Shown: positions 61 through 61,672 of the stretch, in pieces
How the letters are laid out: each line of letters begins with the position of its first letter
Position numbering within the stretch: position 1 is the stretch's first letter
Assembly: GCF_964355755.1 (NCBI RefSeq)
Contig: NC_092676.1
Location: 22,860,288-22,924,287 of the forward strand
DNA from: Antedon mediterranea
Lineage: Eukaryota; Echinodermata; Crinoidea; Comatulida; Antedonidae
DNA: 64,000 nt
Reading direction: 5' to 3'
Made by a program: the position numbers and the translations under genes
The notes under the pieces: generated by a model
The model's database searches: none
Seen by the model: the letters and a program-made list of their open reading frames with translations, nothing else
What the model was told of the DNA's origin: nothing

Positions 61-2135
61 ATGGATCTACTATTCTTTGTCCTTTTGTCATCTTTTATCC
101 ATGGTACATATGGCTTCGCTGCTGGCGCTGGTTCGGGCTCGTGTGAATCGTTGGTACCAAAGCATAGTGATATTGAATCGCAGCCGCCAGCTGCGTCTCC
201 CTGGACAGTAACTTCTTCTGCAACATCTTATACATCTGGACAGACGATTGACGGTTAGTTACCATTAGTTATAAAATACATTTTATTGATTGGGAACCAG
301 AAATAGGAGTGTCCCAGAATAATCGTTAAATAATCATTTCTAATGTTGGAAGTCAGCCCTTGGCAAAGGCATGTAATCTCAGATTGTATATTATATCTTT
401 GCAAATTTGCATTGGAATTACACTTAGTATAGCCGTTCTAACCACATTTCTATAACATTGTTGGCTATGCAAAACGTAATAATTTATGAACCAATGTTTA
501 ATGATCAGAAACAAATTATCAGTAAGATCATGGATATGAATATTTTATCCATGGTAAGATAGTCCTAAATACAGATTTGAAACAGATGATAGAGGGCGTA
601 ACTTACGCATAATGACGTTTAAAGATTTCTTCCGCCATGTAAACGTTGTTTGAATTGGCTATAATCTTGTTTATGTGGACCTATCTATTATTCAACGACT
701 GATTCGAGAAAAATGTAGTTTGTAAATGGTAAGTATCATGAATAAACGAGCTATAAAAGAGCTTATTGTTTTACTGGTGTAGGCCTATTTTGAAGTATGT
801 TTTTCGATATTAACCGGCTCAGCTATGTTCAACGCCACTAGCAACTACTCGTGTGCATCCTATTGATGATCGCCGAACAGGTGAACAAACAATACTAAAA
901 ACAATATAGCCATTGTGAGCATTTCTTGCAATACTGTACCTGCAACAATTTGGTTCATTGGAGAAAGGGTGAGGTAGCTCATTAAATATACCGTAACTAC
1001 AAAATAGAAAGTATAGTACAGTACAGTATCAACAACTGTATCAATATAACAATGATAAATATAATATTGAACAGAATACCACTCATATATCTCTATAAAG
1101 ATATATTTTGCTCAAAACATTACAATACAGATGAAAATATCTGTTATATAGGTTAAATAACATGTTCACTTTTTGTTGAAGCAATGATCTAACTTATAAA
1201 AAAAGATAAAATAATGTTGTTTTTTTTTCTATAAAATAAAAAAGTCAATAACAATTATGTGGCTTTAAAATGGGCTATTCAATAATATATTTTTCAGGGG
1301 ACAATACATGTTTAAACACGTGTGGAATATAATATTCATAGGTACAATAATTTTCATGTTTATCTTCCACGTGTAATAAATAATAAAAATATGTTCATAT
1401 TGATTTGAATGTTTATACACACCTAAGCATAGGCCTACTTAGTATAAACTTTTCTATTTATTTTTAAACAGTAACCATTCAAGCCTCAGGAAGTCAGCAG
1501 TATATTGGTATTCTTCTTCAGGCTCGTCCAGCTGGATCTAATGTCCCAGTTGGAACATGGGTAACGAATGTGGCAGATACAAAGCTAAAGCAATGTACGA
1601 ATGCAGACGACAGTGTAACTCATTCAAGCGATAGTTTAAAACCTGTGACGACAACATTTACCTGGATACCGCCCTCGTCCAATGTTGGATCTATAGCGTT
1701 TCAGTGAGTCTATGTTTTCTACCAAGCAATACAAATTGCAAAGTAGTATTACTAGAAAAAAATGTTTGCAAAGCATTTGGCGAGCATATTACTTAATTAT
1801 TTTATAATTGTGTTTTTGTACGATAACGTCCACAATTTCAAAGTTATCGTCATTAATATTTCGCACACAGTAAAATTGATATATTCGTATACAAGTTAAA
1901 ATGTCTTGATGAATCTCGATTTGTTATATTTTTTTTATTTAAGTTAAAATACCTCGATTTATTATATTTTATTTATATATTTTGATATATATTATTATTA
2001 TAGTATTATACAAAATTATTAGTCGTATGTTAGGCTAAATTTAATATTGTATATATTTTTACAGTGCAACGTTTGTAGCAGCCTATGCAACATTTTGGGC
2101 AGATGTGACAAGTGTTTATATCAGTTATTCAACAA
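61..2135 (+). CDS. Gene A: secreted Reeler-domain protein, three exons, 3' end unresolved
   Basis: Three exons read as one frame: 61-253, 1472-1703 and 2065-2135, giving 165 codons plus one base. Residues 1 to about 18 (MDLLFFVLLSSF...) are a hydrophobic signal peptide. The rest is a Reeler domain: an early Cys (GSCESL), the block QQYIGILLQAR, VGTW, a second Cys (KQCTN), FTWIPPS and the terminal ATFVAAYATFWADVTS. Reeler domains occur in reelin, spondins, ferric-chelate reductase-like proteins and insect defence proteins; the exact role here is unknown. Donors are GTTAGT, GTGAGT and GTAAGA; acceptors are AACAG and TACAG. Phases are 1, 2, 1, identical to the Reeler exons of gene D, and the middle exon is 232 nt in both. 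Exon 3 ends in phase 1, so it could splice to the EGF exons from 10764 (Reeler-EGF, as in D), or the gene may end in a short unseen exon. If intron 3 is retained, a stop follows within about 90 nt. Confidence 0.78.
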
Positions 2136-6523: not shown

Positions 6524-6770
6524 TTAAAGATATATTATCCACTTGAAAATATATTTGTTCTAAAATGTTTTTATTGCATATGCCATTTTAATGTCACATA
6601 ATAGTTAACCACTTCCACCAAAAAAAATTATTTACCTTAAAAAAACTGTAATTTAATGCAAAAATAGTCAAATTGGCTGCCAGCCAGCCAAAAATTACAA
6701 AATAATCTGTTCAAAGTCTGATCTAATTAACCTTCACTTTTCATGTTTTTGGGAAACAATACAACTTTAA
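6524..6770 (+). mobile_element. MITE-like repeat, TTAAAGATRTATT family, copy 1
   Basis: This starts TTAAAGATATATTATCC and ends near GGGAAACAATACAACTTTAA. It shares internal blocks with 10973-11304, including GCCATTTTAATGT, CAAATTGGCTGCCAG and TTTTTCATGTTTTTGGG. The ends are diverged inverted repeats of each other. There is no ORF, so this is a non-autonomous element. Confidence 0.6.
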
Positions 6771-9149: not shown

Positions 9150-12100
9150 ATGTCGTCTGGATTGTTCTTGCTTGTCATTGCTTCCACGTTGGGGTTAGTG
9201 GCAGGACAGTGTAAGTTGAAAAAACAATGTTTAGTTTGACGTATGATAGAGAGAATATTGCAAAATATATCGTCTATCGACTATAAGGCTTTGTTCACAC
9301 GCAGCTCAACGCAAACGACGTATCGACGCAAAGTGCCGTATTGCGTAAACAAGTTGTAGGCCTTAACCCGCCGACGATGCAACAGTCGCTACGGGAAATC
9401 AATACAGCTTGATTTCATGCAACAACATATGCAACAACATATGCAAACGCACAAGGGCAACATAGTCAACAACGAACGTTGACGTAACCAAACAGGTTTG
9501 ATTTCACGCAGGTTGGGGTTGGATGGAGGAGGGGGGAGGGGGCGGAGATAGGGGCGGGCATTGTTATTTGAAGGGCATTTTCTTACGTTGCGTCGCACGT
9601 TGCGTCGCTTACGTTGCGTTGCGTCGAGTACAGAATTAATACTCATTACTCATAGAAGACTTCCAGATTTACTGTGAGGCAATCAGGGTTTATGGTTCAT
9701 GTCCTGTTAGTAAAAAGGTGAACGAAAGGTTCTTAAATTTTAATCAAAATAGTATAGTAAGTATAGGTAGTACGTTCTCGACTACCTTCACTTTTGTAGA
9801 AATACAACAATGTCTATGAAACCAATAGTTGCACTGATTATGTTTTAAAAACATAGCATAAAACTAACTCTAAATAACGAGAAGCAAGCCATGATTCAAC
9901 GTTTCGATCTTTACTTATCTTTATTCCTGATGATGATCAAACAAAGGTCGAAACGTTGAATCATGGCTTGCCTCTCGTTTTTTTGGAGTCAGTTTTATTC
10001 AATGTCTATGATGTTCTTGTTACCTTTTTGATGTTCCATTCATTTATATGACTTGTGTGCAATAGGGTGACAGTATTGTACAGTCTAATGAAATTCAGCT
10101 TTTACATTTTTTTCTCGATGATTAAATATGTTTTTGATGTTTGTTATAGCTTTTAATATTTTATTCATTATATATTTTATAAATGTAAATATTGTAACAA
10201 TTCAGCTTTCTGCCACTACAATTTTGTTTTAATAAATATACCTAGAAGAATAATAAATTAAGTTTACGTTCACACTGAGTTTGGATTCCGATCTGGTAGT
10301 CAGATAAGCGATCATAAAATACTGTATGGATGTAGTGTTTGAGATTAGAATCGTTCGATTTCGTACAATACCTACATGTGTGATCGGGAAACCCAGTAGC
10401 CCAGAATGTCCCTTTGACAATGGACAACTGAACCAAATCCGGACTTAGTTTGAACGTAGCTTAACTGATCATCCGGATTAATGTTTGTACTTGATTCTAC
10501 CTATTATCTTATTTTCTCGTTTCGCAAAGATAATTAATAAACCAACTTTTCAGGGAAATAATTTGTTTATACCACGGAAGAGTGAAATTCGTCTTAACAG
10601 AATCTGATTTAGAATTTAGAGTTTTTGTCTGTGTTTATGGCCAACGGATACAAAAATAATTAATAATTCATAATTTCTGCATCGCCTACCAATGGAGACG
10701 CGTTCCGTGGTTTCTAGTTAGCATTAACAGTATTTTTACATTTCTGTGTCATTTTTCTAACAGCATATTGTGGCACAAATGCCAATCCCTGCCAAAATAA
10801 CGGACAATGTGTCGACACTGGAAATTGGTACATGTGTATGTGTCCTGAAGGGTTTATGGGAGATATGTGTGAAACAGGTAAGTTGTTATTTTAATATATT
10901 TTTGTAGGCCTGTATCAGGAAGTTTCTTTATAACAAACATTAAATGGGGCGCTGTGCTAAATCACATTAGTCTTAAAGATGTATTATCCCGCTTGCTGAA
11001 AAAATAGTTCTGAACAACATTTTTGTTGAATAGCCTATGCCATTTTAATGTAACATAACAAAAAAAATTGGATGAAAAAAATGTATTTACCTGAGCAAAA
11101 TGTAATTTAAAGCAAAAAATTGTAAAATTGGCTGCCAGATTTAATTTAACCATTTATTATGTTATTTTATAAGTGAAAACATTATTTGTTTTCCTTTTTT
11201 TTCTACGGAAGTGATTAACTTTATTAAAACTACACAATAACCTATTCAAAGTCTGATTTAATTAATCTTCATTTTTCATGTTTTTGGGGACAATACATCT
11301 TTAAAGTTATATTTGATAAATATATAATTATTATTATATATATTATATTGTTTGTTTATCAACTTTTTAGTGGAGATTTTCATCTATGTCAGTTGTTTTA
11401 AAACAACAGAAAAAAAAAATAAAGCACAAGCAGTTCTTGCGAACAAACTCATGTGCAATTACTTTATACGGACATTGTGATATCAATCAATCAAATAAAT
11501 CAAAATAAATATAATATAGCTAAACGTATATTGTTGATGCCTTTGACAATTAGCATGTGTATTTTGTAGGTGGTACAACAACACCATGCGACTCTTCTCC
11601 TTGTTTTAATGGTGGTACATGCAACAACGTTGGTACAACATCATGGATGTGTACATGTCCATCAACGTATACTGGTAGTCAGTGCCAGACATCTGTAGGT
11701 TAGTAATTATTCTATTATCGCTTGTATATTTGGAAACTGATAAAACCTGTACCTGAATGTGCCTTGCGTAACTTGCAAAAATGTTTTTACCGGACAACTA
11801 GAGGAAGGCTTTGTGGAGTCGTTAATGTATCTTCTCCAGTAGGGTATACGACTCATCTATGTTTTTGTTGCAAAAAACTACTCGCTTATTAATAGAGCAA
11901 TACATAAAAGGTGTCGATTATACCGTAGCTGTAGCAGTTGGAAACCAGGCAATATGAATGTAAACGACACGGTTCAACGTATGACAACACATCTCACTAA
12001 TTATAGACATTTGTAAAGAATTTGTTATTATAGTCTGATTATTCTTTTCTGGAAAGAGAAATCACGAAACGTAACTAGAGTCGGTAGGGAGAAAACGCGT

Positions 12101-15100
12101 TGTTTTCTTGTTTCACAACACAATCAATAACCGACATGTATATCCTTACAGGAACAACAGTGCAGTGTACATCAACTACTTGCCAATATGGAGGAACTTG
12201 CATGTTGTCTGGAAACTATTACACGTGTGCTTGTCCTCTCGGAACCAGTGGTGACAACTGCCAAACGTGTATGTATAATTGTGTAGCAAATACCTAGATT
12301 TTTGTATGTATGGTTATAATAATGAAGATAGTATGAGTTGTAATTATTCTTTAATATAGTTAAATATAATTTGAATTATTACTATAACTACCTTTGAAAT
12401 GTATTAGCAGTTGGGTGGACATAGGAATGTATTAGAAAGGTTGCCTTAAAGCTCACAGGCATGAATGTTAAATATAATAATATTTGATTAATTGTACATA
12501 AATCAAATATGCATAACATAAAACATATATTTCTCTTAAAATGATAAAATATAAAATTTTGCAAAATTCATAGATTAAAAAAAATGTCTCTCTATTCATA
12601 TCATTTGTGTACAAAATAATATGGTTTTTAATATCATGTGTTGATCATGTGTAATTTGATCCATCCCTACTGAAAAGAATGTGCTTATTTTCAAGTAGAT
12701 CGTGTAACACAAATAAATTCCTAAATTTATGAAACATAGTGGAAACTATAGATCGATAAATATTGGAATATATGATAAATAGAAATGTTTTGTCCCCACC
12801 TGACCTTTACAACTCTTAACAGATACCAAAGCACAAGAAATCTTTTACTAGACAACACAATGTAGTTCTGAGTATGAAAATAAAAATGCATAAAAAGTGT
12901 TAAAAAAATGAAAACTACGAGCCTTTAACTTAAAAAAGATAAACTTACAAATAGTAAATGTTTAAATAAGGGAGGTTTCGATAAAGTTAGTAAAACATTT
13001 TTTTCTTTATGATACTTAACATGACATATAAAACACTGGTTTCATACAAATCAAATTATTTTAATTGTAATTGTTTTGACAAGGATGTGAAGGGGAAATC
13101 TAGATTAATTATATAACGGTATGTTTATATGCTCACATTTGTTGTATCTTATAATTATACAGAGCTTGTCTTCCTCAGCGAGAGGCTGACGAACCTACGC
13201 AGTTTCGAACAACTTATTTCAATAACAAACGTACCTTCTAATTATTAATTGAGCATTTTGGTCTCTTTTTAGTGACATCAACTGGGTGTTCAGGGAATCA
13301 GTGTGGTTTCTTCGGAACCTGCCAAACACTTAACCTTGGAGGATACACGTGTGTCTGCTCAAATGGATACACTGGTGACACCTGTAATGAGGCCCCACGT
13401 AAGCAAGACTCCGTTTATTCAGTATTGCCACAATGTTATAGGAATATGTACATACATATACTGTAGTTTAGTTTATTATTATATTTTTGTTCTGTTCAGT
13501 AGGCCAGACTATATTTACACAAAATGTTTACTACTGATTATTAAACAAAAATAATTGATGTAATTAATCATTTTAATATATCTGAAGAAAGAACAATGAT
13601 TGATTAAAAAATGTCAAGCGGCGTTTTTAGTAAGAAATATTTCTTGTTTAATGTATATAATCAGAGAGAGTGAAATTACTACGTGATTTCATTCCTCCAT
13701 CACGTGATATAATTAATGCTATTTTCCTTTTTAATACTGAGACTAGCAATGAATTCAATCAATGTGATTTTCGTTTACTGATCTCCTTTACCCTCAGCAT
13801 CGTACTGTAGTTTTGGGACATGTCAACAGAATGGAGTTTGCTCTTTGTCCGGTAATTACTTTGAATGCGATTGCCCTACAGGATACGCTGGAACAACTTG
13901 TGAACTAAGTAAGATACTTGCTGTTGTTAATATTTATTTTAAATTAATTACATTTCGTTTCATAGATTGTACTTTGTAGAATTTTGTTCTCGCGCATTAA
14001 CGATCTGTTGATACAATAATGAATTTTTATGAGAGCAATTTGGAGAAAGATGAAATGTTTTCACCTCATGCAATTAGTATTTTCCCCATTCCACGAATGT
14101 AAAACTTCCATTATTCGTTTAATTATGTCAAAATTCGAACAACACATTCTTAGCTAGGCTATAAGTTTAGAAAAGCAGATTAGCGATACAATCCATATCA
14201 ATCCATCCAGTCTATTATACTATGTGACCCATCGTCAAATCAAAGACCAGAATCTATTTTGGTGTGTTATGATGGGGTTTGTTGATGTGCATCTGCATTG
14301 TGCTTTTGGATAGTTTTTAGATATTGAATGGGTTATTTAAAACGCATACCTATTTTGTTTTTTTTTGGATTGAACTGTCCCTTGTTATTTGTATACGTCC
14401 TAGTTTTGTCACTCTAGTGAGAACCAAATTCTTTTTGGGAAGTACAGTACGGTATACATAAAATACAATAATAAAGTCCTAAAAAATGCTATTTTAACTA
14501 TGAAATAAAGTACACAATGTAAATAAAAAAGTGGACTCATTCAACACTTTTACATAAATGAACATTTATTCATGGAACATACCTTACTAGGCCCCTAACT
14601 GTTTGGTTCTTTTTCCACTTGGAGGATGTACATTTAAGATTTATGTTACGCAGAGCACAGATGACATTTTGGCTGTAAAAAATATTTTTTAATACGATTT
14701 TTTACAGGTGCAAATCCATGTGATGAGTCACCGTGTGTCAATGGAGGTCAGTGTAATTTCGTCACTTCTACATCATACTCTTGTTCCTGTCCAAATGGAT
14801 TCGCTGGAAGCACGTGTTTGGAAGGTAAGAAATTAAACCATTACTACATTATATCACTAAAATAAATTCGTTTATATTATGCAAGTTTTGCCTTTAAGTT
14901 ACAAATAGGCCTATAGGTCTATAGTCTAGGTTATAGAGACAAATTCACCCTCATTTTCGAAAACAGAACATTTGAATACATACAAAAGCGCCCATTTTGT
15001 GAAAAGTCTGCAGTATCTATAATAATAGACCGTATTTAAACACAATTTGTGATCGGTTTTACAATTCTTTAAAATGCTATTTTGATCAATATTGTTTGAA

Positions 15101-15494: not shown

Positions 15495-15578
15495 GTAAGT
15501 TTGTTTACTCAAAATCGTCACTGATTAGCTCCAATCAGTGCACTATGAATTTAAAGATTCGATTCAATTTGTATTTAA

Positions 15579-17833: not shown

Positions 17834-17845
17834 GATAATTCCTAA

Positions 17846-44700: not shown

Positions 44701-47700
44701 ATTAATGATAGATTAAATGGTATTTTTAAATTTCTAGCATCTGCTGGATGTCCAGAAGGTTTTTGTTTGAACGGCGGTGTCTGTGATACTTCTTCAGAAT
44801 CACCTACTTGCACGTGTCCAGTGGCATGGACAGGAAATAGCTGCGAAACAGGTATTTTTAATTACATTATCTTCAACGATACGATACAATCCCGCATGAT
44901 AAAAAAACTCTATAATAATATTCTGTGACGTTTGGTACTGTTACCTCTCATAGAACATCCCCCAGTATAACAACAACGTGACATGGTATTAACAGATTAA
45001 ATATAATGATTTTCATTACTTGTAATTTTGAATACCACAATGAATTAATTGATAGTTATGTTTATTTTTATCTGGTAAAACTAGTTCAGAAACATTATTA
45101 CTTACGAAAACTGGAAAAGACCTTTCTACGTTTTACTTCCCGACAACTCCCAGTCCATTCAGCTGTAAATGAGTACCTGGTTGAAAATACTAGGGAGGAT
45201 AAAGCCGGCGGCGTGGAAATGCCTAGGCTTAGTATAATGAGCTCCTAACAGCTCATTCCCCTACGTTCAGAATGAACACGTCGAAACTCATTACATTATA
45301 TTGAGACTTTGTCAAAAAACATAATCAATTTCTATTTTAGATGTTAATGAGTGCGATAGTGGCCCTTGCCTAAATGGAGCTGCCTGCTTTCATGGCATTG
45401 GACAAAGTGTTTACCAGTGCGTATGCCAATCCGGGTTTTCTGGTACAAACTGTCAAATTGGTGGCCCTGATCAGACAACACCAACAGGTAAGGTATTGTT
45501 TTTGCTCGATTGCTTGCAATGTTCTGATGTATGTAATATCGATGAAAAATGTGAGGTTTCTCCATAAAATTAGTCTCCTTGTTCATAATGTAAATTAAAA
45601 ACTTAATTGATATTTAACAAAGGCAAGTAATAAACCTAACTTTATTCTTAGCTTAATACTTTTATGTTGTTTCTAAAATGTAATTTTCTAAATAAATTCA
45701 TTCTAAGATCCAATTATTATCCTTATAATGTCTTGGCTGTGATGGCACTGGTAGGAATTGTATGTAGAATTATAATCCAAAGTCATTATCTGAAACTTCA
45801 CAGCACTTTTTCTGTCATAAATTCTCACATAAAGTTACTTTACACATTTTAAAATTTTTTTCATATTTCATGGTTATTTAAAAATGTCTGCGACGATATT
45901 TTACTCTCCGCTACCTTTATATAAACACCAATGCAGAAGGGGAAAAACAAGAATATACTAACACATTTTCATTCATTTTACATACAGTACCAACGCCTCA
46001 ACCGACCACATTACAACCGACACCAGATCCGTGTTCTACAACAGTCTGCTTCAATGGTGGACTATGTGTGAACGGGAATTGCATTTGCCCACAGGGCTAC
46101 AGTGGTCAAAATTGCGAAATAGGTAGGACTATGTATAATTTACAGATTCCCCATATCACCTGAAGGTAGAATTCACTTTCAGAAGAGGCTTGTGTATTTT
46201 CAAATTCTAGTACTGTAAATTAACAGTGACGGTGTAACTTAAATATCAATTAGAACAAGTCCAGTCGCCTAAAAAATATATATTTCAGTTAAATTTAGCT
46301 AAATAGATCTGAAGAACACAATGAAATAATGAATAGTGGTTTTGATGTCGTAAGATTATGTTCAGACTTAACATAAGTGTTTAATTCAGGAATTGGGTAT
46401 AGTAGCATGTGCAGTTTATAACTAAAATAAAGTCTATGGATATATGGAACTAGTTGAGTGGAACCACAATTGTTTTAAAAGTAATAGTCTTTCTTTTTTA
46501 GATGAATGTGCCCAGTTAAATTGCCAAAACGGTGGTATGTGTGCGTTTGGCCGATGCGAGTGTCCATCTGGTTTCATTGGAACGTTTTGTGAAATTGGTA
46601 AGCATCAATTTAATTTTTATTTTCAGGCTTTCACTGCTTTAAATCATTTCATGGTTAATGTGGATATATATTTTATTACTGTATGTCGATGGCTGTTGTT
46701 ATTTCTAACCTTTTTTTATATATAAAAGAATACATTTAATAATTGTAGTACCACAAATAAATACAATACATGAATACAATGTCAACTTTTGAAGTAGTTA
46801 ATAATTCTAACATATATTTATTTTGTATTTTTGTAGATATATGTGCAGGTTTGAACTGTGGAAATGGTGCTACATGCCAGGCAGATGAGGAGGACAACTT
46901 TATGTGTGTATGCCCTGCTGGGTACAGTGGATCCGACTGTATGGTCGGTAAGTTATTAGTATGTCTAATACTACTGGTAAAGGTTACAGCAAAAATTGAA
47001 TCGTTTTCACTAAACTTGTTTTTCCACTAGCCGAATCTGTACATTCATTCACACGAATCGAACGTTAATTAACTCTGATTGCTTGCCTTTTGCCTGCATC
47101 CATCGTTGGTGCTTACAGAGAAGTTATCCTCATCTTCCCACTTCCTCTTTCTCTGGGAGGATTTGTTACATTTGCAGACAACAAAATTGATTGGTTGGTT
47201 TATTTTGTTTCTATTTCGGCACCACTATTTGCATCACAAAGAGATGAAAATACAAATGTGATTATACAGCTTTGGATTCGCCTAGTGGAGAAAACATTAT
47301 TCACATCACACTAACCGTTATTATTAGAGGGACGTAAAAAGGTAGAGATATCGCTTTTTTAGTACTCTATTAAATGCATGCTTCCATTTCGGTGACAGTT
47401 TTCCTACTTCGTAACTTTACTATCCTATGCATGCCAAATAGATGAGTGTGATGAGCTTAACTGTGAAAACGGTGCCCTCTGTGTTCAAAATGAGAATGGT
47501 GTTATGGAGTGTGAATGTCCTGCTGGTTATACGGGTGAAACTTGTTCTATGAGTAAGTAAAAGAATCTTTTCAAAGTGATTTATTGGAAGAATTTCAACC
47601 TACTGTAACCCTTTACTGCGCATGTCTGGGCAAAAGCTACTTTTTTTACAATTCTATTCATTTATGCATTTGTGCCTTCATAAATATATTTTAAAAACTG

Positions 47701-50700
47701 CTTTAAAGTTGATGGCATATATACAATTTTAAAATTTGTTGATTATCACAATTTCAAGTTTGTAAAGTAATTATAGACTATAGCTTGCATATCTCTTCAA
47801 TCACCATATTAGGCGCATAGAATGCATTAATTAAATTATTATGGGCACAGCACAGCACTCTCAAAATTTAGCTTATCGTACAATAAATGAGTTTGAAGCA
47901 AAACACAATTTATAAAGATCTACCTTGTGATAGTTTCTGTCAATTTGTTAAAAACTATGACAAGGCAAAAACATGTTAATTTATTGATCAGTCACATTAA
48001 TTGCAAATTTCAACTCAAGTTTCCATTAAATCTTCAATACAATTTAATCCTTAATGCAATCTTTAATTTAATCTTAAATGTAATAGTCAATTCTATATTC
48101 TATTCAAACTTTAATTTGATCTTAAATTCAATCTTTAATTTAATCTTAAATTCAATATTAAATTCAGTCTTTAGGTCAATCTTCAATACAATCTTCAATA
48201 CAATCTTCAATTCGATCTTCAATTCAATCTTAAATTCAATCTTAAATTCAATCTTAAATTCAGTCTTTAGGTCAATCTTAAATTCAATCTAATACAGAAA
48301 TTACTTGAATGTACTTTAAACTGGCTGATAATTAATTTGTTAATTTTTGAATTAAGTTGACGCTTGTTATGGATTTGCGTGCAATGGTGACTGTGCCGTC
48401 GATGTTAATGGTAACCCAGTATGCATCTGTCGACCAGGGTACAGCGGCGGTAACTGTACAACCAGTAAGTTCTGGTTATAATAGTAATCTAAAATGCATA
48501 CTTAAAAAAACAAATTGTAATTAAAACGTTTTTCTAGTGAATTCATTTTGAAGAAAAGATGCAAAAAAACTGTATATTCACCAGAACCAAACCTACACAA
48601 TAATACACCTGCAACAAGAATCACTGCCACTGGGCCACCATCACTTAGCCAAAACGTTACCAACACTAAACCCACCACCACAAGTAACGATAAATAAGAC
48701 CTCACGATTAACTCACCAATAGCACCACTTTTAAACTTATGTATGTATTTTTATGTAACTTTAAATAATGTATCGATTTGAAAATGGTAATGATAATACT
48801 TTCCAGATTATCTTGGTTGGGATGTATTCCTTTTATTCCATATTCTTTTATCTTTACAGTTTTTCACAGATTTTAAAAAATATTCTATTTTCCTTAGGCG
48901 TATGTGATGGAGTTGTTTGTGGAGATGGATTTACATGTGAAATTGACAGCAGCGGAAATGCGTATTGCGATGAAGACGGTAAGAAGATAATCTCAATAAA
49001 TATTTAGATATTTATTTTTGATTTTTACAAAATGTTACAACATTATTTTGTTGCTGATTACAAAAAAATCAAAGATTACCGTAATTCATTTACACACAGC
49101 ATACATTTTATTATTATTATTATTATTAGAGACATGCTTCAATAATACATTTCCTAAATGTATCAACACATTTCTTTGTATCTTTCTGGGATCCTACCTT
49201 CTTCCTCCCCGTCCCCAGATTTATTGTTATTTGTATATGTTATTCCTTATTTATTCCATTATTGTTTCAATCTTAAAAGGAAGTAAATAAATGCTATTTT
49301 GAATTTAATCGAAATTGAATTTGTTCGTCATATTCAAAAAGTGTTGCTTGAGAAAGCCAAATTGGAGGTAATACACTGTGACTAGGACATAACTGTAGTA
49401 AAATAAAACATATTATTATAATTCCATTCGTAGAGGTAGAACCAGAGTGTGATGAATTATCATGTGGACCTGGAGTGTGTGTCAGAGATGCTGTCACTGG
49501 GGTTGCTGCATGCAGTTGCCCTCTAGGATACTTTGGTCCAAGCTGTGAAAGAAGTAAGTTTCGTTTTTTAATCATTCTAATAAAATAACAAAATTACTAT
49601 GAAATAACACAAAAATTACCAAAACTAGGCTTACTTAAATTAATTACTAATACAACATAACCAATTCTTCTTTTATATTTATACATTTCTGTTTATGTTG
49701 TTCTCTTTCTAATATAAACCTAAATTAATAAATTTAATATTTTGTAAAAAATAAGTTGTACAACCATATTGTTTTTATTAAGACGTTAGTTTTTCTAAAA
49801 AAAATTTTCTGAATTTATAAAATGATATTCGTAAGTAACATGCGTGCAAATTTGAGGTTTTGGTAAATATATCTTAATACTAAACGTCGTATGTAAGAGG
49901 CTAATATCTTTGGCGCTTATAACATGCTTCTATTAACGAAACATTAACATTATCAGGTGGTTGTGAGAATTATATTTGCATAAATGGTAACTGTAGCATT
50001 AACAATGACGGCAATGCAGAATGTGTGTGTAAATCTGGCTATAATGGAAGTTACTGTGGGAACAGTGAGTTATAGTTTGCATCTTACATTTTTAGAGAAC
50101 CATAGGCCTACTATGGCACTTAAAACAGTGGTTGACCAGTGGTCAATGGTTATTTTAACATAGTGTGTCGCATAACTCTCGCTACTACGTATACGGTACG
50201 TATGATCTGTAAGGCTTAGGGCCACGATTCACGCTTAACACCTGGGTCTACGTAGCAGAATAAGGGTATGTTTATGAGCTGTTTTTTTGGGAGAAAGGTT
50301 GCCTTACAAATCTCACAAACTAACAAACCATATATAATCAAATTCAATAAATGAATAGAATTACCATAACACAGTTTAACACAAGTATTTATTAACATTT
50401 CTACTACGAGGTAACTTAGCAGCTGTAGTACAGCAGTACTACATCAGTAGAGCTTACTTGGATAAGCATAATATAGCACGTTTTTCTGTAGAATATATAT
50501 TGCTGTACATTGTACAGTAGAATTAATTATATTTCCAATTGAATTGTAGAAAACCAAAACCACCATGCATTTTAATCACTATAATATTTTAATAATAATG
50601 ATATCATCAGGTACCTGTGACAATAAATTCTGCATAAATGGCGACTGTTACGTCGATATGAACGGGAACCCGCAATGTCCATGTCCAGACGGTTACACAG

Positions 50701-53700
50701 GACTTGATTGCCAAACTCGTACGTATAAATGCATCACATCTTTTAAAATAATTCCACTAAGCACTGTGTTTATGAAATCAAACCCATTTACCTATGCATT
50801 ATGCCTCTCCCATAGAGGTAAAATGATTCCAGTGAATCCATTTTAAAAAATACAAATATTATATTGACACAACCTAAATTCAGAAATGACTAATTCTTCC
50901 ATCAATTCTAATTTAATTGACGTTAATTGTGTTACATATCTATACTTATTTTAGCTACTACATGTGCGGATATTACATGCTACAACGGCGGCGTATGTAT
51001 TGCTTCAGAAGATTACGCTAGATGTGATTGCCCAGAAGGATTCACTGGTGACACGTGTCTCGATAGTAAGTAATTTAATTGCAACTAAAGCAACGCTAAT
51101 GACGTCGTCCATCGAGGGTAGAAAACCCGAGAACTAGATGGCATTATAGACGAGTATGTTATAAGAATGTGTCTAAATAATAATAATATTTATTTAATTT
51201 TCTTTTGAAAATGGTCAATTTTTTTGTTTTTCTAAACGTCTAAGAAATACGTAAATAGGTAAGTAAGTAAAATAAATGTTCACTAATGCTTGCATTTCAA
51301 TCTTAGTTGACGTTGATGAAGATAACTGTACAAATATCACTTGTAACAATGGCGGTGAATGTCGTATGGAGACAGATGGTGAAGCTAGGTGTTATTGTAC
51401 AGAGGGTTACACCGGGGAATATTGTGACGATCGTAAGTAATAAAAATCATTAACACTAATATATTTGTTTTAAAAATAAGGTTTTACAGTTTTCATAGTT
51501 TAACTCATTTCTTTCTGTTATTAATTTGACAAACATTCAAATCAACAATTGCAAAAGAAAACAAAATCTTATGATACAGTACCCTACAGCTGTTGAATAA
51601 TTGGCATTTTTGGTTCGTTATTTTTGTTAGCGCCCTCTATATTGATATATGAATGTGGATGAATTTATAATTATTATTGTAATTATAGAATTTAAACTTT
51701 CAGTAGAATAATATTTTGTAAGAAAATTAAATAGAGTTCAGTTTCCGTCATATTTGTTTTGAATTTTAAAAGTTGAAGTGCCCCCTCTATATCGTCACAC
51801 ATTTTGGTTCACGTTAACTGTTGAGCGCCCTCTATATCGACACAAATTCAGTTCAACTTTTTATTGTAATAATAAAGTTTAGAGGTAAAAACCTAATAAA
51901 AAATATGGATACTAACATTATTTCGACTTCAAAATATTTTCAAATTAAAGGAGATATAATTCACAATTAAGAAGACACAGTTTTTTTACAATTTTAATAA
52001 TTTTAATTATGACCGTTTGAAGCTACGATAAAAAATCATAATCCGTGGTATTGGTAGAGCAAAATGAATAATAATAAAACGCCGAATAGTTATCATTGTT
52101 ATTCTCATGTATTCTATTTCAGCTATTGTTGTTGATGCATGTACTGGATACAACTGTAATGCAGGAGTGTGCTCAGTGAATTCATTTGGTGCACCTACAT
52201 GCAGATGTCCAGACGGCTACTATGGAGACAGTTGTGAAGGATGTAAATCAATCAATACATTTTATAAATAGATCAATAAATCAATTTGATATAATAATTA
52301 TAACTGTTTAATATCTGGTATACTGGGTTAAACCATTGTGCTACCTTGTTTAATGTTTTCGCGAAATGAAATTTGACTAGAGATGTATGGTTTTATCAGA
52401 TATAAACAAATCTGGCACAACGCCAATATCTACATTTTACTACAGCCGTATTCGACTGAGCTATTTTGCGCAAGTGTTTGTATATTACCAGTTGAATACG
52501 CTCTTTAATAGATGCCGATGCATGTGTTTCATTTTCTAACTTCCTCTGCAATAGAAGCTACAGTAATGTTTATTGGTGTATATAACATAACATTGCTTTC
52601 TTTATGTTTACAGATATATGTGACCTTATTAGTTGTAACACGGGAACCTGTTTAGTATTAGGACCATCCACAGTAGAATGTATGTGTACAGCTGGTTATA
52701 TTGGAGATAGGTGTGACACATGTAAGTAAACAAAATTCTAAACTACTTGGTATAGAGACCCTCTCATTTGTAATTTCATGACAATTGATTCGGTTTCTTG
52801 GCGTTAGGCAAAAGTTATCGAATGTGTAGACCTAAACGCGAAGAAGATATCAAAGAAAAGAAGTATAAACTTTGATTTTGATTAAATGTATTGTTTATCA
52901 CTGCCTTTGAAAAGTATACCGCATATTACAGAAATGTCCGTTTATATGACTTCGCTTGACATTTGGAGAGGTGACCCACAAAAAAAAAAGTAATATACTT
53001 CATACCTATATTCCGGTTATTTATACCTTGAATGGTTGCCTTAGTGGTTCCACCAGTTCAATAATGCGTTTACACAGATGGTCATAGCTTTCTTTCAATT
53101 CTAATTATAGATGTATGTGGTAATTACAACTGCAATGGAGGCACCTGTACAGCTGATAGCAATAATCTTCCAACTTGTGAATGTCCAGCTGGCTATACTG
53201 GCGACAGTTGTGAATTTAGTAAGTTTAGCCTCCTTTAGTGTTAGTTCATTACTGAGCCTAATTATAATCGTAACTTACAGTAAGTGTCATGTATATAATC
53301 ATAACTTAAATATATTTGGAAACGCTGTCTTTACGAGTCATAACTATAATTAAATTCATGATTACATCATACACCATAGATGATGTGTAAACATTTATTT
53401 TGAAAAAATAGTGACTTCTTCCTTAATCATGACAAATTTAACAAGATGTATTATCTCCTCCTATTCCTTTTAACTCTCTTTATTCAAGTTTAAAGGAGAT
53501 ATACCATTTGATATTTCGTTCCCTAACTCTACCGATCCCAAAAACAAAACGGTAAAGTTTAATAATATTTTTGTTGACAGGTTCCTGTGTCAATGTTAAC
53601 TGCAACGGTGGTACATGTACTCTAACTAGTCAAGGAGAAGCAATATGTTTTTGTCCAGATGGATATTTACCTGAAGATAACTGTCTCTCATGTAAGTTAT

Positions 53701-56700
53701 TCTAATTTATATGTGTTGTAAAATGTATCTTGCATATCGTGTGTACTGTTTTGTAAGAACCTGTATCATTAGTATTTATTAGTCAACATTAAGATGCTCA
53801 TCTCACAAGGTTAAAACTGTTACCGAATCAGTAATATACAAACGCATTAAAGCATTAGATACAATTTCATAATAAATGTATCAATAATCTAAGTCATGTT
53901 TTCTAATCCAGAATTAACAACAACATTATAAATTAAGATTTAGATGGATAAACATGCTATAATAGTATTGTATGTATGTACATAATGAATGTATTTTGAT
54001 TTAATAAAAGCCAACATTTTCAAAAAAATACTTTAAATATACCGAAAGAATTATTGCTTCGTGTATTTTATCCCACATACATCATTTGGAAAATATAATT
54101 TTCTACCAATGTTATAATATCTTTCAGCTGTATGTACAAACTTCAACTGTAATGGAGAACCTTGTTTTTTGGTCAATGGAGAAGCAGAATGCCAGTGTCC
54201 AAACGGATACTCGGGCTTAAACTGTGAAATCAGTATGTATTCTTAAATGATACGTATTATATAACACCTAAATAAATTCCTGTCATTCGAATGGACGATT
54301 AGTAGTACGCACCATTTAAATAGTACTTTTTGTCTCGATTTTCGCGTACCATTTGTGAAAATATAACGTTTTATCATTCACCTCATGCCATTATTTGTAC
54401 CATTCCACGTACCATTCCACTCATAATTTGTATAATATTCACTTACAGTCAACCTTCCCATAAACATTCCTCTTGTTCTGAAAGTTTTAGTCGCGTGGAC
54501 GCGACTCAATAGTTCATTATGTCGGTCGGTCAGTCGGTCTGTCTGTCGGTCCGGTATCACTATGCGTTGTATCGCTTTTCTGTACTTTTTGAACTGTTTT
54601 GATGTACATTACTTTTTGAAAGTTCATTTTTTTCTGAGAGCACGCGATTTATGGCTGTTGGCCTTGTTAATGAAAAGTTTACGAAAGTATTAAATAATAT
54701 ATTATTTTATTTAAATACAACACTACTATTTTATTGTTAGCTTTTCAATTGATGTGTTTTTAACAAAATAATCTTCTAAACAACAACCATTACATACATA
54801 TCAAGTGATACAAGATCAGGAGAAGATTATAAAATAAAATAATTTTTCTAGAGCTATACTGATGACAATCCACTTAACTATTAATGTCTCATAACCACGC
54901 TCCATATTGTACATACCATATCTTTCTACTGTACGTTGTTGGAGATCATTGTATCAAGTATCTTAAAGTGTAGTGTAAGCAAGCCAGTGTATGGAAACAA
55001 AGAATATATATCACAAGAATGAGTATTCCGCGATTTTTGCATGAGAAATTTGTAACAGAGAGCTCTAGTGAGTGATGCCCGCCCTCATAAGGGCGGATGT
55101 ATACATACTAAATAATACTTGATTTAATAGATATTATACATGTCACATTAAATAGAATTATGATAATAGTTTTTGCAATTGTAAACTATTTTATAATACA
55201 TATTTATTAACAAATAGTGTACATTCACTTTTACAGACAATTACTTACTAACATGCTAAGTTAGTTCACAAAAAAGGCCTAACACAGCAACACCAAAAGT
55301 CAACGAATCGTTACTCAGCACGGCCTATTCTTTACCATTGCCCGTGTACTACTCTACGCCCGGTAAATTAAGTATTGTTTTTATGATATAAATTAGTATA
55401 AGATACATGTTATTAATAGGAAAAAATGTTAAATGTCATTAACATTTATTTGTTTTACCAGAAACAAGTTAAATATAGGAATATTATTAAACTATCCTAC
55501 GTGAAAACGCGTAAACACCAACACGCCCGGTCACGCTATCGTAGCGCCCGGTTGATAAAGCAAACTGTTTATACGGCAGTTTTTACTAAATAAATTGCAT
55601 AAAACGAACAATTAAATATCTAAATAGTATTTAACATGATGTTAGCATGTAGTTGATAACATTTTTTATCATGAAAATACTACCGGTGGTCCAGCCTTTG
55701 ATTAGTGAAACCGTCACAAAAAGTTGTATACATCCCAGATACATCCACACTTATGGCGGCGCCCTACCTCATGGACAATATTACTGTTACAGGGAAAATC
55801 GCGGAATACTCATTCTTGTGATATATATTCTTTGATGGAAATACGTATAATGTCTTACAATCTGTTACTACATACAAAATGAGATGAAATATTGAAACAT
55901 ATATCTTAAAATTGCTACAGCATGTACAGTAGATGACACATTTATTTTATTTAAAGCTCCTTGCTCTGGTGTTAATTGTAATGCTGGAACTTGTGGCATA
56001 ATAGAAAACGGAGTCGCAGTGTGTAATTGTAACGCGGGATATTCTGGACAGTATTGCAATATAACTGCAGGTATTCTTATTTCTAATCACATTCAAATTT
56101 AGGTTTTAATGGTTATGATTTAAAAAAATTAAAATCTGACACAATGACTACATAAATTTAAATAAAGACACTTTGTTAACATCGTTTTCCATTTTCCTTT
56201 GATTTTCCAGGTAGCTGTGAAAATGTTAACTGTAATTCAGGTGTTTGCTTTCTTGTAAATGGTTCACCTCTGTGTGAATGCCCACCTGGGTATTCGGGAA
56301 CAAACTGTGAAATTAGTAAGTACGAAATAACTAACGAAATAATACAAGACATTCAGACTGGCTTCTAGAAAACTGTTAGCATAACCTATTTGATAAATGA
56401 ATTAAATAGCTTAATACAATAATAAATAAACTAATCTAACCAACCATTGTCGACCAAGGATATTATCAAATTATACGTACATTTATATGTACCGTTTACC
56501 GTATGTAAATTATTTTCGATAATCTTTCTCGTCTGGAGCCACCCATGGTTTTTTTAAGCGTTTTGAAGTAGTTCTATTTTTGATTCATCATTTATGTTCT
56601 TTCCCACACAGCACCTTGTACAAATTATGCATGCTTCAATGGAGTCTGTTTGATAACCAGTGGTGGTGATGGTTTTTGCAATTGTTTCACTGGATATACT

Positions 56701-59700
56701 GGAGACGACTGCAGTCAAACAACTTGTAAGTTGTAATTACTGTTTTAAGTAAAATCACTTTATGTTTGTCAGTGTAGTGTGGAGTTGCGGTATCCGAGTA
56801 GTTGTTAATATTAATAGTATTACCAAGCATGCGTGTTGTCAACATATGTCACTCACTGTGTACGTATTCATTTTCAGCTCAAATGTTACCGATGCATCTA
56901 TGCCTAATCAAATTTCTAATTTGTTGTTATTAATCTAGCTGACTGCTCAACATTGAACTGTCAAAACGGTGGTATATGCTCAGACTCCACTGGTCAGACT
57001 GTCTGCGTATGTCCGTCTGGGTACACAGGCAGTTTATGTGAAATAGGTACGTAATGTTTCATTACGTGTGTTATTTATTTAATCAAGATGTATTCTTCAC
57101 AAGATAAAATATAAACTTTCATTTAGGAAATGGTAACTTGTTATAAACAAAATTCTCACTTTGTATAAATGTTTACTTTTGTATTATGCTTAAGATGATT
57201 GTATTAACAATGTTGCTCAATGTAGCTCAATGTAGCTCAATGTAGCTCAATGTAGCTCAATGTAGCTCAATGTAGCTCAATGTAGCTCAATGTAGCTCAC
57301 AATGTAGCTCCTGTATTTCATTTAAACCCATAATTCTTATACAAATACATGCTTGCAAATAATGTTTATTAACATTATGTAATTACTTTAGCTGACTGTT
57401 CAGGAATAAACTGTCAGAATGGTGGGGTGTGTAGTTTAGATGTGAACAATCAGGCTATGTGTACATGTCCAACTGGCTATGGCGGAAATCTATGCGAAAT
57501 GGGTATGTAATGTTACTTATACGCATATTAACAGTGATGACATCTTGATATTGATAATGCAAGCAACCAGATGCCTTGATTTGATTTTACAATGAGATGC
57601 TAATGAACGTAAACTAAAACTGACTAAACCAAAATCTTTATGGTTTTAGATCATGTTTTTTATCTATTTTTTACACTTTTTAATCCACAGAAACTGGAAT
57701 TGAGACCTGTCTGACTGTGACTTGTCAAAATGGAGGAACATGTTTTACGTCACAGGCAACGGGTGGTGCCCTCTGCATTTGTAACACTGGTTATAGCGGA
57801 GATCGATGTGAAATAGGTATGTAAATAGGCCTAGTGTTGTAATAATATTAAGCACTAAGAATCTTACAGATATTATTTGGCAAAATGCATGAGATCAACA
57901 GAGTGCAGGCTATTTTGTACTTCTGCTCATATTAAAGATACATTTAACTCGAGATGTTAATAAGCTTTTTTTCGACAATGTTTCTATATCAATAATTATA
58001 GTATGTTTTTACTTACAAAAATACAAAAAAAACAAAATACACAAGAAGTTGAACATTGTGGATAAAGAAACAAACACTGACTTAACATGTAATGCATATT
58101 TTACATTTTGCCAAGTAACAATGTTGTTGATAATTGTCATTTAGAACCGGTTTAAATAATAGTTACATTGTGCCTCCCACCAATACCATAGTCAATTGAC
58201 ATGATATTTCTGTCTAAACAATAATTCATACTCTTGTACTAATACAGTATAACACAATGCTGGACATAAATTGGAAACATTTTCAATCAACATATTTTTG
58301 TTCATTCAAAGGTACATGTAGTTGTCAAAATGGAGGACAGTGTGTACAATCTACAGACGGTACAACTGAATGTAATTGCCCCACTGGCTATTCTGGGGAC
58401 AATTGCGAAATAGTAGGTGAGTGAGATAAACACCTTACATAAATTTCATAATTTAAATTCCAACATGAATTTTTTTTCTCTGTTTTTGTTCTGTTTTTCA
58501 TAATAATTATTAATTTTTTTAAGATGGAGGCATTTGTTTTGGGAATGTGTGTTTTAATGGTGGTGTTTGTACGCCATCCGGTACCTGGTACATGTGCGCA
58601 TGCCCGATGGGATTTTCTGGATTTAATTGTGAAACCCGTGAGTATTTGAAAACTAAGCATTATTTCGTTGATGCATTGCCTATTCATTTCCTGTGCATTA
58701 GCTTTTAAATTAGACTAATTTAAACCGAAGATTAACAATATTAGTTTTATTAACATTGTATTTTTTCAGCTGAAAGTGATCCATGCTTAAGTAACCCATG
58801 CATAAATGGCGGTACGTGCAGCACAGAAAATTCTAACTACGCCTGCACCTGTCCTGCAGAATACTCGGGCACAAATTGTGAAATCTTCTCACCAGGTAAG
58901 ACAATACACCATACTAAAACTATCTTAGAACTTTCAGGTGCTAAAAGGTGTTTAAATTTATTAGAAAATCAGCGTCAGATTTGGATTTTAAAATTAGGAA
59001 ACCTTCAATAGGTAGACCTAATAAACTGTTTTTTTACTTTTGATGTGAAGAGCAAAATGCACTCGAATAACCGATCTTTATATATTTATCGAATTGTGTG
59101 TTGTACGATAACGTCTAATCTTTTAGGTTATTGTCCTGCAATTTGGTATATAGGTTTCAAGAAAATCGAAAATCGTTGAAAAAAATCTGTATCTTCAATA
59201 TAGGTCGAAAAAGTAAATTTTGCGCCCTCCATTGCTTTCTGAATTTTGCAATGTATTAATGTTCAGTTGTTAAATCTTGTATTTTGTTACAGGAACGGGC
59301 CTGTGCAGTACCGCCCCGTGCATGAATGGGGGTGTATGTACACCATCGGGTAACTGGTATCTATGCTCGTGTGCACCAGGGTTCAGTGGGCCTACATGCG
59401 ACTCATCAAGTAAGATGTTACAGTAATAATCAATCACATATTGTACATTATATAACACCTATATAAATTCCTGTCATTTGATTGGACGAATGTGGGTCAC
59501 ATGGCGTGCAATAGTACGCACTATTCAACGATCGTTAAATAGTACTTTTTGAAACATTTTTGTGTACCAAAAAAAAACGTCTAGATGTTATATAAAACAA
59601 ATAATGAATGTTTTGTATTCGTGTAATTTGCCTCGTTGATATAACCTTTCATCATTCACCAAGTGCCATTATTTGTACCATTGCACTCATAAACATTCAT

Positions 59701-61672
59701 TATTTGTATAATATTTAACCTCTTTCTTGCTAAACACTGACTGATGATTAACTATGACTATGGAAATCGGCGTTTGTCTGTTGAGTATTAGCAGCCTTAT
59801 TAAATGTCAATATCCAAAACATTGTTTGATTATTGATAAATTGATATTATTATGTGATTAAGGCAAAAACTGAGGCCTTATTATCAAACTAGTTATGTTT
59901 GAACTTTGTCATCTAAGATTTAAGCAAATAAGCGTAAACATCATTTGATCATTATTTTGAAAACTGAAATAAGTAAGATCTTTGATTTAAAACACAAATT
60001 TAAATTGATTTTATTGATGTTCAAGTCTACTGCATTTTTCATCCGTACCATTAATTACTCGACAATAATCCCAGTGTGTATTGAAAATCGTAACAAACAT
60101 GTGTTTTAACAGGTTCGACTCCTTGTGATCCAAGCCCTTGTCAAAATGGAGGTACATGTTCTATTTCCGGGTCAACGTACGTTTGTGCATGTGCGTTCGG
60201 ATATGAGGGAAATACTTGCGGACAAGGTAAATCTCAAAAAATGGCTCTTGAAATATTGTATTATTTTTTTCATTTGGAATAAGATCACGTACAGGGAACA
60301 TTTAGCTGTGCAAACATACAAACACAAACCAACTTTTTACGATATTCCAGAGCATTCGATGTTATTTATATTTTAATGAAATGTAAACAGTTATAGCATT
60401 TTCTGTCCAAATTGTAGTTAGAGCTGTAACCAGAGTAATGAAACATCGTCATAATTAAAACACTTTATACTACAAATCGTACAAAAATATGCTATGATAA
60501 TCAATATTTAACAGTTTACATTGTCTTTTAATGCATTTAGTATCATCGAATCTATGCTCAAACAACCCCTGCTTATCAGGTGGAATATGTATGCTTTCTG
60601 GCAACTATTATTTCTGTGATTGCCCCAACCCTGAAGTCCAACAAGGTTTCAACTGTGAAGACGGTAAGTTATAATTTCAGAACATCATTTTTGTATTAAG
60701 CAAGCATATCGTGACAGTGTATAGTAAATAAAAATAATGTTAAAACTTCATTTACCGTTTAATGCTTTATTGGAAGTTATTGTACGTTATTGTATTTCTT
60801 TTCTTTCTAGTAAATAAATTTAATCAAATGAAGATTCGCATCGAATCCATGTTTGAAACAAAAGTTGCAGTTCGTATCATGCTCATATTTATTTATCATG
60901 ACGTGCGATGTGATGTCGTTTGGGTTGGATCCATTTTCGTAACACATTTTTTTGTATTTATAGTATCTGGAAACTGTGCGGGTGTGACGTGTTTGTTTGG
61001 TTCATTATGTATGAACGGCGACTGTTCCTGTCCTCAAGCATGCACAGATGAGATAGCAATAGTATGTGGAAGTGATGGCGTTTCATACTCCAACGGTTGT
61101 TTTTTGGACTACGCAAGCTGTACTGGACAAATCACAATCACAATAGTAAATACTGGTGAATGCCAAAATGAAAATGGTAAGGAAAATATCGGAAAATAGA
61201 AGAAATAACATAATAATTAGATGTCAGAACTTCTACTTCGTAACTATAACACAACTTTTATTTAGATGGTAAAATAAATAAAGAAATTAATAAATAAATA
61301 AAAAGTGCTATTTAATTGTGAAAATGAATGATTCTAATGCACGTCCAGCTTTATGTAAAACATTTTCCTCACAGGGCGGCTTTTAAGACTGAATCCTTAA
61401 AAAGTAGTATAAGAAAATACAACAAACAGAAAAACAACCTTGGAAATACGAATAAAATGTTATGGATTTAATATAGCACAAACATCTGAACCATTTAAAA
61501 AATATAATTATTCAATAAAAAAAATGTTTAATTTGACTTTTTTTCAGTAAGTCCATCGTGCTCCAATAATCCATGTCAAAACAATGGCGTGTGCATACCA
61601 TCTGGAAACGCGTATTACTGTGAGTGTCCTTCCTCGTACACGGGGTACAACTGTGAAACACCGGCAGTTTAA
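36967..61672 (+). CDS. Gene D: large secreted Reeler-EGF-Kazal protein, 39 exons, 1571 aa
   Basis: Exons: 36967-37195, 41205-41436, 41665-41726, 42057-42158, 42358-42477, 42709-42819, 43096-43212, 44738-44851, 45341-45487, 45988-46122, 46502-46597, 46837-46947, 47442-47552, 48357-48464, 48898-48978, 49434-49553, 49957-50064, 50611-50718, 50955-51065, 51307-51432, 52123-52242, 52614-52721, 53111-53218, 53581-53691, 54128-54232, 55957-56070, 56211-56315, 56612-56725, 56939-57046, 57392-57502, 57691-57816, 58312-58416, 58524-58637, 58770-58895, 59293-59409, 60113-60226, 60541-60663, 60964-61176, 61548-61672. The frame is continuous across all of them. Order: signal peptide, Reeler (to about residue 174), 34 EGF exons (one with only four Cys), a follistatin-like/Kazal exon, a last EGF, then PAV-stop. 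Exons 4-38 are class 1-1. No membrane anchor is seen. Likely an extracellular matrix, coat or adhesive protein; EGF composition resembles fibropellin/Notch-type arrays, but no avidin-like or transmembrane module is present. Confidence 0.9.
39080..39141. repeat. Two tandem hairpins, ATCATGGAGAAATAA / TTATTTCTCCATG
   Basis: A palindrome of about 29 bp is repeated immediately after two bases as a 31-bp version. Each arm is CATGGAGAAATAA. Either hairpin, or a larger fold between them, could form. Confidence 0.85.
40971..41180. repeat. Pyrimidine-rich low-complexity tract
   Basis: Long runs of TTTCTTTCTTTT, TTCCTTTT and similar, just upstream of the gene D exon 2 acceptor. It acts as an exaggerated polypyrimidine region; the Phe/Ser-rich open frame here is an artefact. 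Confidence 0.8.
42606..42688. mobile_element. Short CGCAAGGACGTA-family hairpin
   Basis: GTGGTTTGAACACAGTGCAA...GGACGTAAGCGCAA pairs with TTGCGTCCTTACATTGCG...GTGGGAACGAAGC. A compact two-arm copy of the family, about 20 bp upstream of the exon 6 acceptor region. Confidence 0.7.
42874..42996. repeat. Inverted repeat with ~50-bp arms in gene D intron 6
   Basis: Arms 42874-42923 and 42947-42996 are nearly exact reverse complements. Their shared words are CCTCATCT, ATCGTTTCAAAT and TTAAATTTCAGTATA. The spacer is about 23 bp. The outward-facing core TTAATTAATTAA makes a stable cruciform or foldback element plausible. Confidence 0.85.
43298..44130. mobile_element. Dispersed GTCGG-microsatellite element, copy 2
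   Basis: It begins TTTTAGTCGCGTGGAAGCGA, continues with a GTCGG/GTCTG tract and CCGGTATCACTATGCG, then about 580 bp nearly identical to copy 1. A second short unit follows from about 44005 (TATAGTTCACTATG, a tetranucleotide tract, CCGGTATCACTATGC), ending GCACGCGACTTAATGGCTG. The head AGTCGCGTG and tail CACGCGACT are inverted. It lies in gene D intron 7. Confidence 0.8.
45988..46122 (+). CDS. Gene D exon 10: Pro/Thr-rich linker plus EGF
   Basis: The exon opens with [15 protein letters not shown] before a standard EGF ([12 protein letters not shown]...[12 protein letters not shown]). The preceding exon also ends in a PDQTTPT stretch. Together they form a short mucin-like, probably O-glycosylated hinge between the N-terminal EGF group and the rest. 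Confidence 0.85.
48029..48291. repeat. Tandem AATTCAATCTTA repeat in gene D intron 13
   Basis: About twenty units of 10-12 bp (AATTCAATCTT, with AATACAATCTTC and AATTTAATCTTA variants). Some of the array shows a longer period through repeated TCAGTCTTTAGG. The long Asn/Leu/Ile open frame across it is a repeat artefact. Confidence 0.9.
48898..48978 (+). CDS. Gene D exon 15: half EGF with four cysteines
   Basis: At 81 nt this is the shortest EGF-type exon. It reads [13 protein letters not shown] and GNAYCDEDG and then meets a GTAAGA donor. C1 to C4 are present; the C5-C6 loop is absent. It is still class 1-1, so the frame is preserved. The sequence after the donor hits a stop and does not supply the missing loop. 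Confidence 0.8.
49110..49129. repeat. (ATT)n microsatellite
   Basis: Six ATT units in gene D intron 15. Confidence 0.8.
51629..51860. repeat. Three spaced GCGCCCTCTATAT repeats
   Basis: AGCGCCCTCTATATTGATA (51629), GCCCCCTCTATATCGTCACA (about 51779) and AGCGCCCTCTATATCGACAC (51824) recur in one orientation with similar flanks. They lie in gene D intron 20. Confidence 0.6.
54256..54437. mobile_element. Long-hairpin family, internally deleted copy
   Basis: It starts ATTATATAACACCTAAATAA, retains GTAGTACGCACCATTTAAAT and TTATCATTCACCTCATGCCA, and ends TTTGTATAAT. It matches the outer parts of 16921-17833. It lies in gene D intron 25, immediately before another element. Confidence 0.65.
54485..54668. 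mobile_element. Dispersed GTCGG-microsatellite element, short copy 3
   Basis: It starts TTTTAGTCGCGTGGACGCGA, followed by a short GTCGG/GTCTG tract and CCGGTATCACTATGCG. It ends GCACGCGATTTATGGCTGTT. The head hairpin AGTCGCG...CGCGACT is nearly perfect here. It lacks the long central block of copies 1 and 2. Confidence 0.75.
54991..55841. mobile_element. 837-bp TIR element with 7-bp target duplication
   Basis: The element occupies 54998-55834. Its ends are CAAAGAATATATATCACAAG and the exact complement CTTGTGATATATATTCTTTG; the perfect pairing extends about 40 bp inward through GAGTATTCCGCGATTTT. It is flanked by ATGGAAA at 54991-54997 and again at 55835-55841, a 7-bp direct repeat. Inside are GCCCGCCCTC/AAGGGCGG and repeated GCCCGGT words. 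No transposase-size frame exists, so it is non-autonomous. The CA...TG ends and 7-8-bp duplication are compatible with hAT-like elements, but this is inference. Confidence 0.88.
57211..57310. repeat. 10-bp tandem repeat TGTAGCTCAA
   Basis: Ten units, eight of them exact or nearly so, with a TGTTGCTCAA first unit and a TGTAGCTCAC variant near the end. Located in gene D intron 29. Confidence 0.95.
59448..59712. mobile_element. Long-hairpin family, deleted copy 3
   Basis: The left part (ATTATATAACACC...ATTTGATTGGACGA...GCAATAGTACGCACTATT) and right part (GATGTTATATAAAACAAATA...CATTCATTATTTGTATAAT) align with 16921-17833. The intervening ~600 bp is absent and one hairpin arm is partly lost. Located in gene D intron 35. 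Confidence 0.75.
60964..61176 (+). CDS. Gene D exon 38: follistatin-like FOLN plus Kazal module
   Basis: This 213-nt class 1-1 exon is the longest downstream of the Reeler. It begins [19 protein letters not shown], the short EGF-like FOLN half, and continues [30 protein letters not shown] and NTGEC, which gives the six Cys and the CGSDGxxY core of a Kazal fold. Kazal domains inhibit serine proteases or serve as structural or growth-factor-binding modules, as in agrin, follistatin and SPARC. The combined FOLN-Kazal form favours the structural/binding reading, but inhibition cannot be excluded. Confidence 0.9.

Follow-up and report, generated by a model that had tools for sequence, protein, structure and literature searches.

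The 64-kb window (the whole stretch of Antedon mediterranea DNA that was analysed, 64,000 nucleotides) covers the left-hand portion of a genuine tandem gene cluster that encodes long, predicted secreted multi-EGF proteins, some of which are capped by a Reeler domain. The whole cluster is roughly 134 kb long. The original prediction had confined it to about 62 kb; a tandem family does lie there, but it runs on downstream, beyond the window. Each gene, perhaps excepting gene A, appears to encode an N-terminal head followed by a chain of EGF modules. The head would be a Reeler domain in genes A, D and G, a signal peptide alone in B and C, and a Knickkopf (Knk)-like DM13-DM13-DOMON unit in E and F.

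Gene models

A cysteine-pattern scan of the 64-kb window found 49 EGF motifs on the plus strand and none on the minus strand, as expected from the earlier claim that all EGF exons share one strand. Gene models were built with a GHMM that had a splice prior and allowed any exon phase; its splice and codon models were trained on clear EGF exons. The EGF exons come out as phase 1-1, in agreement with the class first assigned to them, a result that depends in part on the input, since the training exons for the splice model were chosen with phase 1-1 ends. The same GHMM gave phases other than 1-1 for the Reeler and Knk exons. One exon of gene D near 47.4 kb, first drawn as 0-1, has a phase-1 acceptor at 47442. 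After cleaning by hand, the models contain 6 + 13 + 35 EGF exons and a single Kazal exon, and arrays 1 and 2 each end in a half-EGF exon; this reproduces the predicted three arrays of 6, 13 and 35 (56 EGF-type exons). Stops at 15474 (array 1), 31650 (array 2) and 61672 (gene D) confirm that the arrays are stop-terminated.

Signal peptides were assessed by eye and with a simple scan. The four predicted signal-peptide starts are plausible, at 61 (A), most plausibly 9150 (B), 20387 (C) and 36997 (D), but the start of B does not adjoin the EGF exon at 10764. Just before 10764, the hydrophobic frame is the polypyrimidine tract of the acceptor and lacks an ATG, and this candidate was rejected. A strict scan for signal-peptide exons (short exons that start with ATG, encode a hydrophobic core and a cleavage site of small residues, and end in a phase-1 donor) returned 11 matches in 666 kb of strand-sequence, several of which are real gene starts. 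The matches include 9150 (B), 20387 (C), 64002 (E), 74528/74534 (F) and 117654 on the minus strand, inside G. Searches for TATA-like motifs and shared words around the starts gave nothing convincing, and neither tRNAs nor Rfam families were found in the window.

Genes within the window

Reeler head A (61-2135, plus strand) has exons at 61-253, 1472-1703 and 2065-2135, and the first of these encodes the signal peptide MDLLFFVLLSSFIHGTYG and the beginning of the Reeler domain. Pfam places Reeler at aa 28-154 with 100 bits (profile 1-131 of 131). The Reeler head of gene D (36997-41726, plus strand; exons 36997-37195, 41205-41436 and 41665-41726) scores 106.7 bits at aa 32-156, also over profile positions 1-131 of 131. 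Both scores lie above the curated cut-off of 21 bits for PF02014, and these full-length matches verify the predicted Reeler exons of A and D. The three exons have identical phases in the two genes (0-1, 1-2 and 2-1).

Between Reeler A and 9150 we found no recognisable terminal exon belonging to A, in a search that short terminal exons could escape. Candidate first exon B (9150-9210, plus strand), identified by the strict scan, encodes the signal peptide MSSGLFLLVIASTLGLVAGQ and ends in a phase-1 donor (CAGT/GTAAGT). EGF array 1 (10764-15474, plus strand) consists of six EGF exons at 10764-14824, all 1-1, and a last exon at 15380-15474 that encodes half an EGF, ending in NWYTCV-stop. Reeler A may thus be a gene of its own, or it may provide array 1 with an alternative 5' end.

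Gene C begins with a first exon at 20387-20453 (plus strand) that encodes a signal peptide (22 aa) and has a phase-1 donor. Its EGF array 2 (24584-31650, plus strand) comprises 13 EGF exons at 24584-31111 and a half-EGF last exon at 31568-31650, ending in NYSCV-stop. Half EGFs with four cysteines, cut after the fourth, occur at 48898-48978, 15380-15474 and 31568-31650; the latter two are terminal and have the same stop position. An intron of gene C carries, at 28887-29254, a 36-bp minisatellite with more than one open frame (LRAPP...FCYS repeats), which is unlikely to be coding.

In gene D, EGF array 3 (42057-60663, plus strand) has 34 EGF exons, all 1-1, with the half EGF at 48898-48978 among them. 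Downstream lies a follistatin-like exon (60964-61176, plus strand) that encodes a short EGF-like part and the Kazal domain called earlier, which Pfam recovers as Kazal_2 (36.1 bits; cut-off 22.8). By sequence, the closest solved chain to this exon is agrin (5e-50 for the whole chain, 1.8e-7 for the best single stretch). In ovomucoid numbering, P1 of this Kazal domain would be Asp, and a role as trypsin inhibitor is thus unlikely. The last EGF exon (61548-61672, plus strand) ends with the 11 C-terminal aa and the stop; its best matches in F and G are their own last EGFs. Gene D thus totals three Reeler exons, 35 EGF exons and one Kazal exon, and its protein is 1561 aa long in the present model, not 1571 aa as first given. 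Short tandem repeats are present in its introns at 48041-48290 (12 bp), 43334-43421 (16 bp) and 57208-57310 (10 bp).

Downstream genes and flanks

The next 80 kb were read in window coordinates, and three further genes of the cluster were located there, no more than 75 kb beyond the window. Gene E (67.05-73.1 kb, with a signal-peptide exon at 64.0 kb) encodes a Knk-like DM13-DM13-DOMON head (DM13 134 bits in two stretches; DOMON 36.8 bits; Pfam) and one EGF. The EGF exon has a strong phase-1 donor (score 7.1), and the true 3' end of E is uncertain. Gene F (76.2-98.1 kb) has a second head, assigned as Knk-like through its similarity to E, and about 27 EGFs. The models of both E and F end in EGF, with no GPI anchor or membrane segment there (in E, as far as its uncertain 3' end allows). 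Gene G is inverted (133.8 to 102.5 kb, minus strand) and encodes a Reeler domain, nearest to that of D (70% in the central exon), and about 24 EGFs.

At the right border of the cluster, the minus strand of C7 at 138-144 kb (window coordinates) carries part of a gene with PDZ-like sequence, as judged by eye. Upstream, at about -9000 to -1900, two to three tandem genes encode small proteins that are rich in Cys, contain a membrane segment and look Shisa-like on inspection; a Pfam search with one exon of these neighbours gave no match.

Shared tails, repeat turnover and selection

The order of EGF units was compared between genes with a collinearity test in which near-identical repeats were collapsed and unit scores normalised, because a simple unit-score collinearity was swamped by such repeats. 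Among 500 shuffles, the observed chain was reached in 7 for A-G, 8 for D-F and 9 for C-F; agreement was weak for C-G (24/500) and absent for D-G, F-G and C-D. These order tests are modest and carry no correction for the ten pairs; EGF modules are short and prone to convergence. D, F and G have last EGFs that are mutual best matches, and the half-EGF end of the A array best matches that of C. We regard this as sequence evidence of moderate strength that the distal arrays may share a common origin across head types (Reeler, signal peptide only and Knk).

Near-identical EGF exons in F and near-identical blocks in G indicate that array expansion is recent. Seven EGF exons of F are spaced at 241-283 bp and are 84-98% identical. 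In G, two 4263-bp blocks within 119.4-128 kb (C7 minus strand) are 100% identical and a third block is 85.5% identical; the identical pair is possibly a recent duplication or an assembly effect. For A, D and G, the Reeler exons of the mature protein have dN of 0.30-0.43 and dS of 1.35-2.6, with dS near saturation. These values mark old duplicates held by purifying selection. Low Lys + Arg content (1.2-2.2% in the array proteins) was considered as a special trait and discarded: EGF arrays elsewhere in the genome have similar values, and the difference from them is small (457/10000).

Elsewhere in the genome

We found 11 Reeler matches in the genome, and EGF exons lie 3' of the Reeler exons at four of four other sampled loci (three on C3 and one on C1). 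Together with D and G on C7, these make Reeler-EGF a recurrent architecture in this genome. The order in D had first been presented as a combination not recognised as a standard family. For its Reeler-EGF part this is too strong within the genome, but of the genes read only D has a Kazal domain near its C-terminus, and we found no paper describing a Reeler-EGF(n) architecture in the open-access full-text literature. Large single-exon EGF arrays are also present on C1 and C6. Knk-like paralogues at C4:4.76-4.79 Mb and C11:8.50 Mb have no EGF exons in the stretches read, and the C4 copies terminate in hydrophobic, GPI-like tails, whose place EGF takes in E and F.

On C2 the assembly has one Hox cluster, made up of 12 ordered genes; three of these are of the posterior 11/13 type, and one of the three is inverted, gene names here being our reading of the homeodomains. 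Such a Hox set suggests Ambulacraria. Dlx is on the same chromosome, which differs from the hemichordates of PMC11175523. COX1 was not found in the assembly.

Possible functions

The matrix, adhesive or recognition role guessed at in the original prediction is one that we infer. We favour a role in matrix or mucus, with immune recognition as the second candidate. In the favoured reading, to which we give an even chance, the cluster would encode fast-duplicating, rod-like, disulfide-rich secreted proteins of an apical extracellular coat, mucus or secreted matrix, with the head as the binding end. Secretion is predicted because the N-termini are hydrophobic and a simple scan finds no later hydrophobic segment: in A, C, D, F and G, no 19-residue segment after residue 30 has a mean hydropathy above 1.52, and no C-terminus is hydrophobic. 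The cluster has grown by tandem duplication of both genes and phase-1 EGF exons, and symmetrical phase-1 introns would allow unlike heads to be joined to distal EGF tails of one type. The head would bind a ligand (surface or glycan), which the EGF chain, acting as a long and stiff spacer, would cross-link or present. Secreted EGF chains with O-glycosylation-type sites would suit such an extended spacer. It is unlikely, in our view, that unrelated heads (Reeler, Knk-like and signal peptide alone) have been swapped onto a shared EGF tail, partly via alternative first exons, with proteins that differ in their binding ends arising from a single array.

Another arrangement, possible but doubtful, is that A and B form one gene, as do both parts of G, and that a distal EGF array can begin, alternatively, with the Reeler exons or with the internal signal-peptide exon as its 5' end; the heads of E and F might also share an array. 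Such a structure can accommodate either function, matrix or immune. The same order occurs twice, with a Reeler head, an internal signal-peptide exon (9150, and 117654 on the minus strand) and distal EGFs that agree in order. The lack of a recognisable terminal exon after Reeler A and the strong donor on the EGF exon of E point the same way. However, A would need an 8.6-kb intron, short terminal exons are possible, and no promoter motif was found at the starts.

The favoured matrix or mucus role also competes with a less likely but serious alternative, in which the cluster encodes secreted pattern-recognition or antibacterial proteins whose Reeler domain binds microbial surfaces and whose EGF chain aggregates or presents the complex, with pathogen pressure diversifying the cluster. 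In shrimp, crayfish and insects, Reelers with a single domain bind bacteria, inhibit the growth of Vibrio or promote nodulation (PMC12113285), a sponge Reeler gene responds to microbial patterns (PMC6208332), and the cluster is tandem and fast-duplicating. The antibacterial role of the arthropod Reeler-only proteins fits immune recognition at least as well as matrix. Against this, the immune Reelers of PMC12113285 are single-domain proteins without EGF arrays. The Reeler exons here are on average under purifying, not diversifying, selection, and Knk-type heads sit in the same cluster. Knk-type heads are not known to have an immune role. That the proteins are signalling ligands or receptors of the Notch/Delta kind is very improbable: many EGFs in the arrays carry O-fucose, O-glucose and EOGT-type sites, but Pfam finds no DSL, LNR or similar domain in A or D, none of the models has a membrane segment, and calcium-binding-type EGF starts are few and confined to D and G.

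Comparison with known systems

The cluster offers a compact case of exon shuffling in progress, in which phase-1 EGF exons multiply and two unrelated heads have the same type of tail. In one deuterostome locus it unites Knk-like heads, familiar from the cuticle of insects, with Reeler heads, familiar from the immunity of arthropods, and it provides a concrete set of predicted extracellular proteins with which matrix and defence roles can be tested.

Arthropod Reeler proteins bind bacteria and inhibit them (PMC12113285). The Reeler-only defence proteins Noduler, PcReeler and LvReeler have a signal peptide and a Reeler domain and are secreted, as is predicted for the Reeler proteins here, but they have no EGF chain, and A is comparable only if its transcript ends before array 1. 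In Noduler-type proteins the Reeler domain spans nearly the whole protein, whereas D combines it with 35 EGF exons and a Kazal domain. Reelin has a Reeler domain followed by Reelin repeats (BNR-EGF-BNR), whereas A and D match Reeler and EGF-type families only. F-spondin is composed of Reeler, Spondin_N and TSR domains; neither Spondin_N nor TSR was found in A or D, and the solved Reeler of spondin-1 is a weak match (E 0.76).

In insects, Knk proteins act as organisers of the cuticle (PMC4140639). The Knickkopf family (Knk and Skeletor/Knk3) shares with E and F the DM13-DM13-DOMON order and a conserved C-terminal region. Insect Knk has a GPI anchor or membrane segment, with EGF not described (PMC4140639), whereas E and F carry EGF exons instead. 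Agrin and follistatin contain FS/Kazal modules, and the penultimate exon of D is a follistatin-type EGF-Kazal unit with agrin as its best match; unlike agrin, D has a single FS/Kazal unit and showed neither a LamG nor a SEA domain. Fibropellin-type proteins and single-exon EGF arrays are EGF chains too, but here each exon encodes one EGF, the introns are in phase 1, the heads are Reeler or Knk, and no avidin-like tail was seen.
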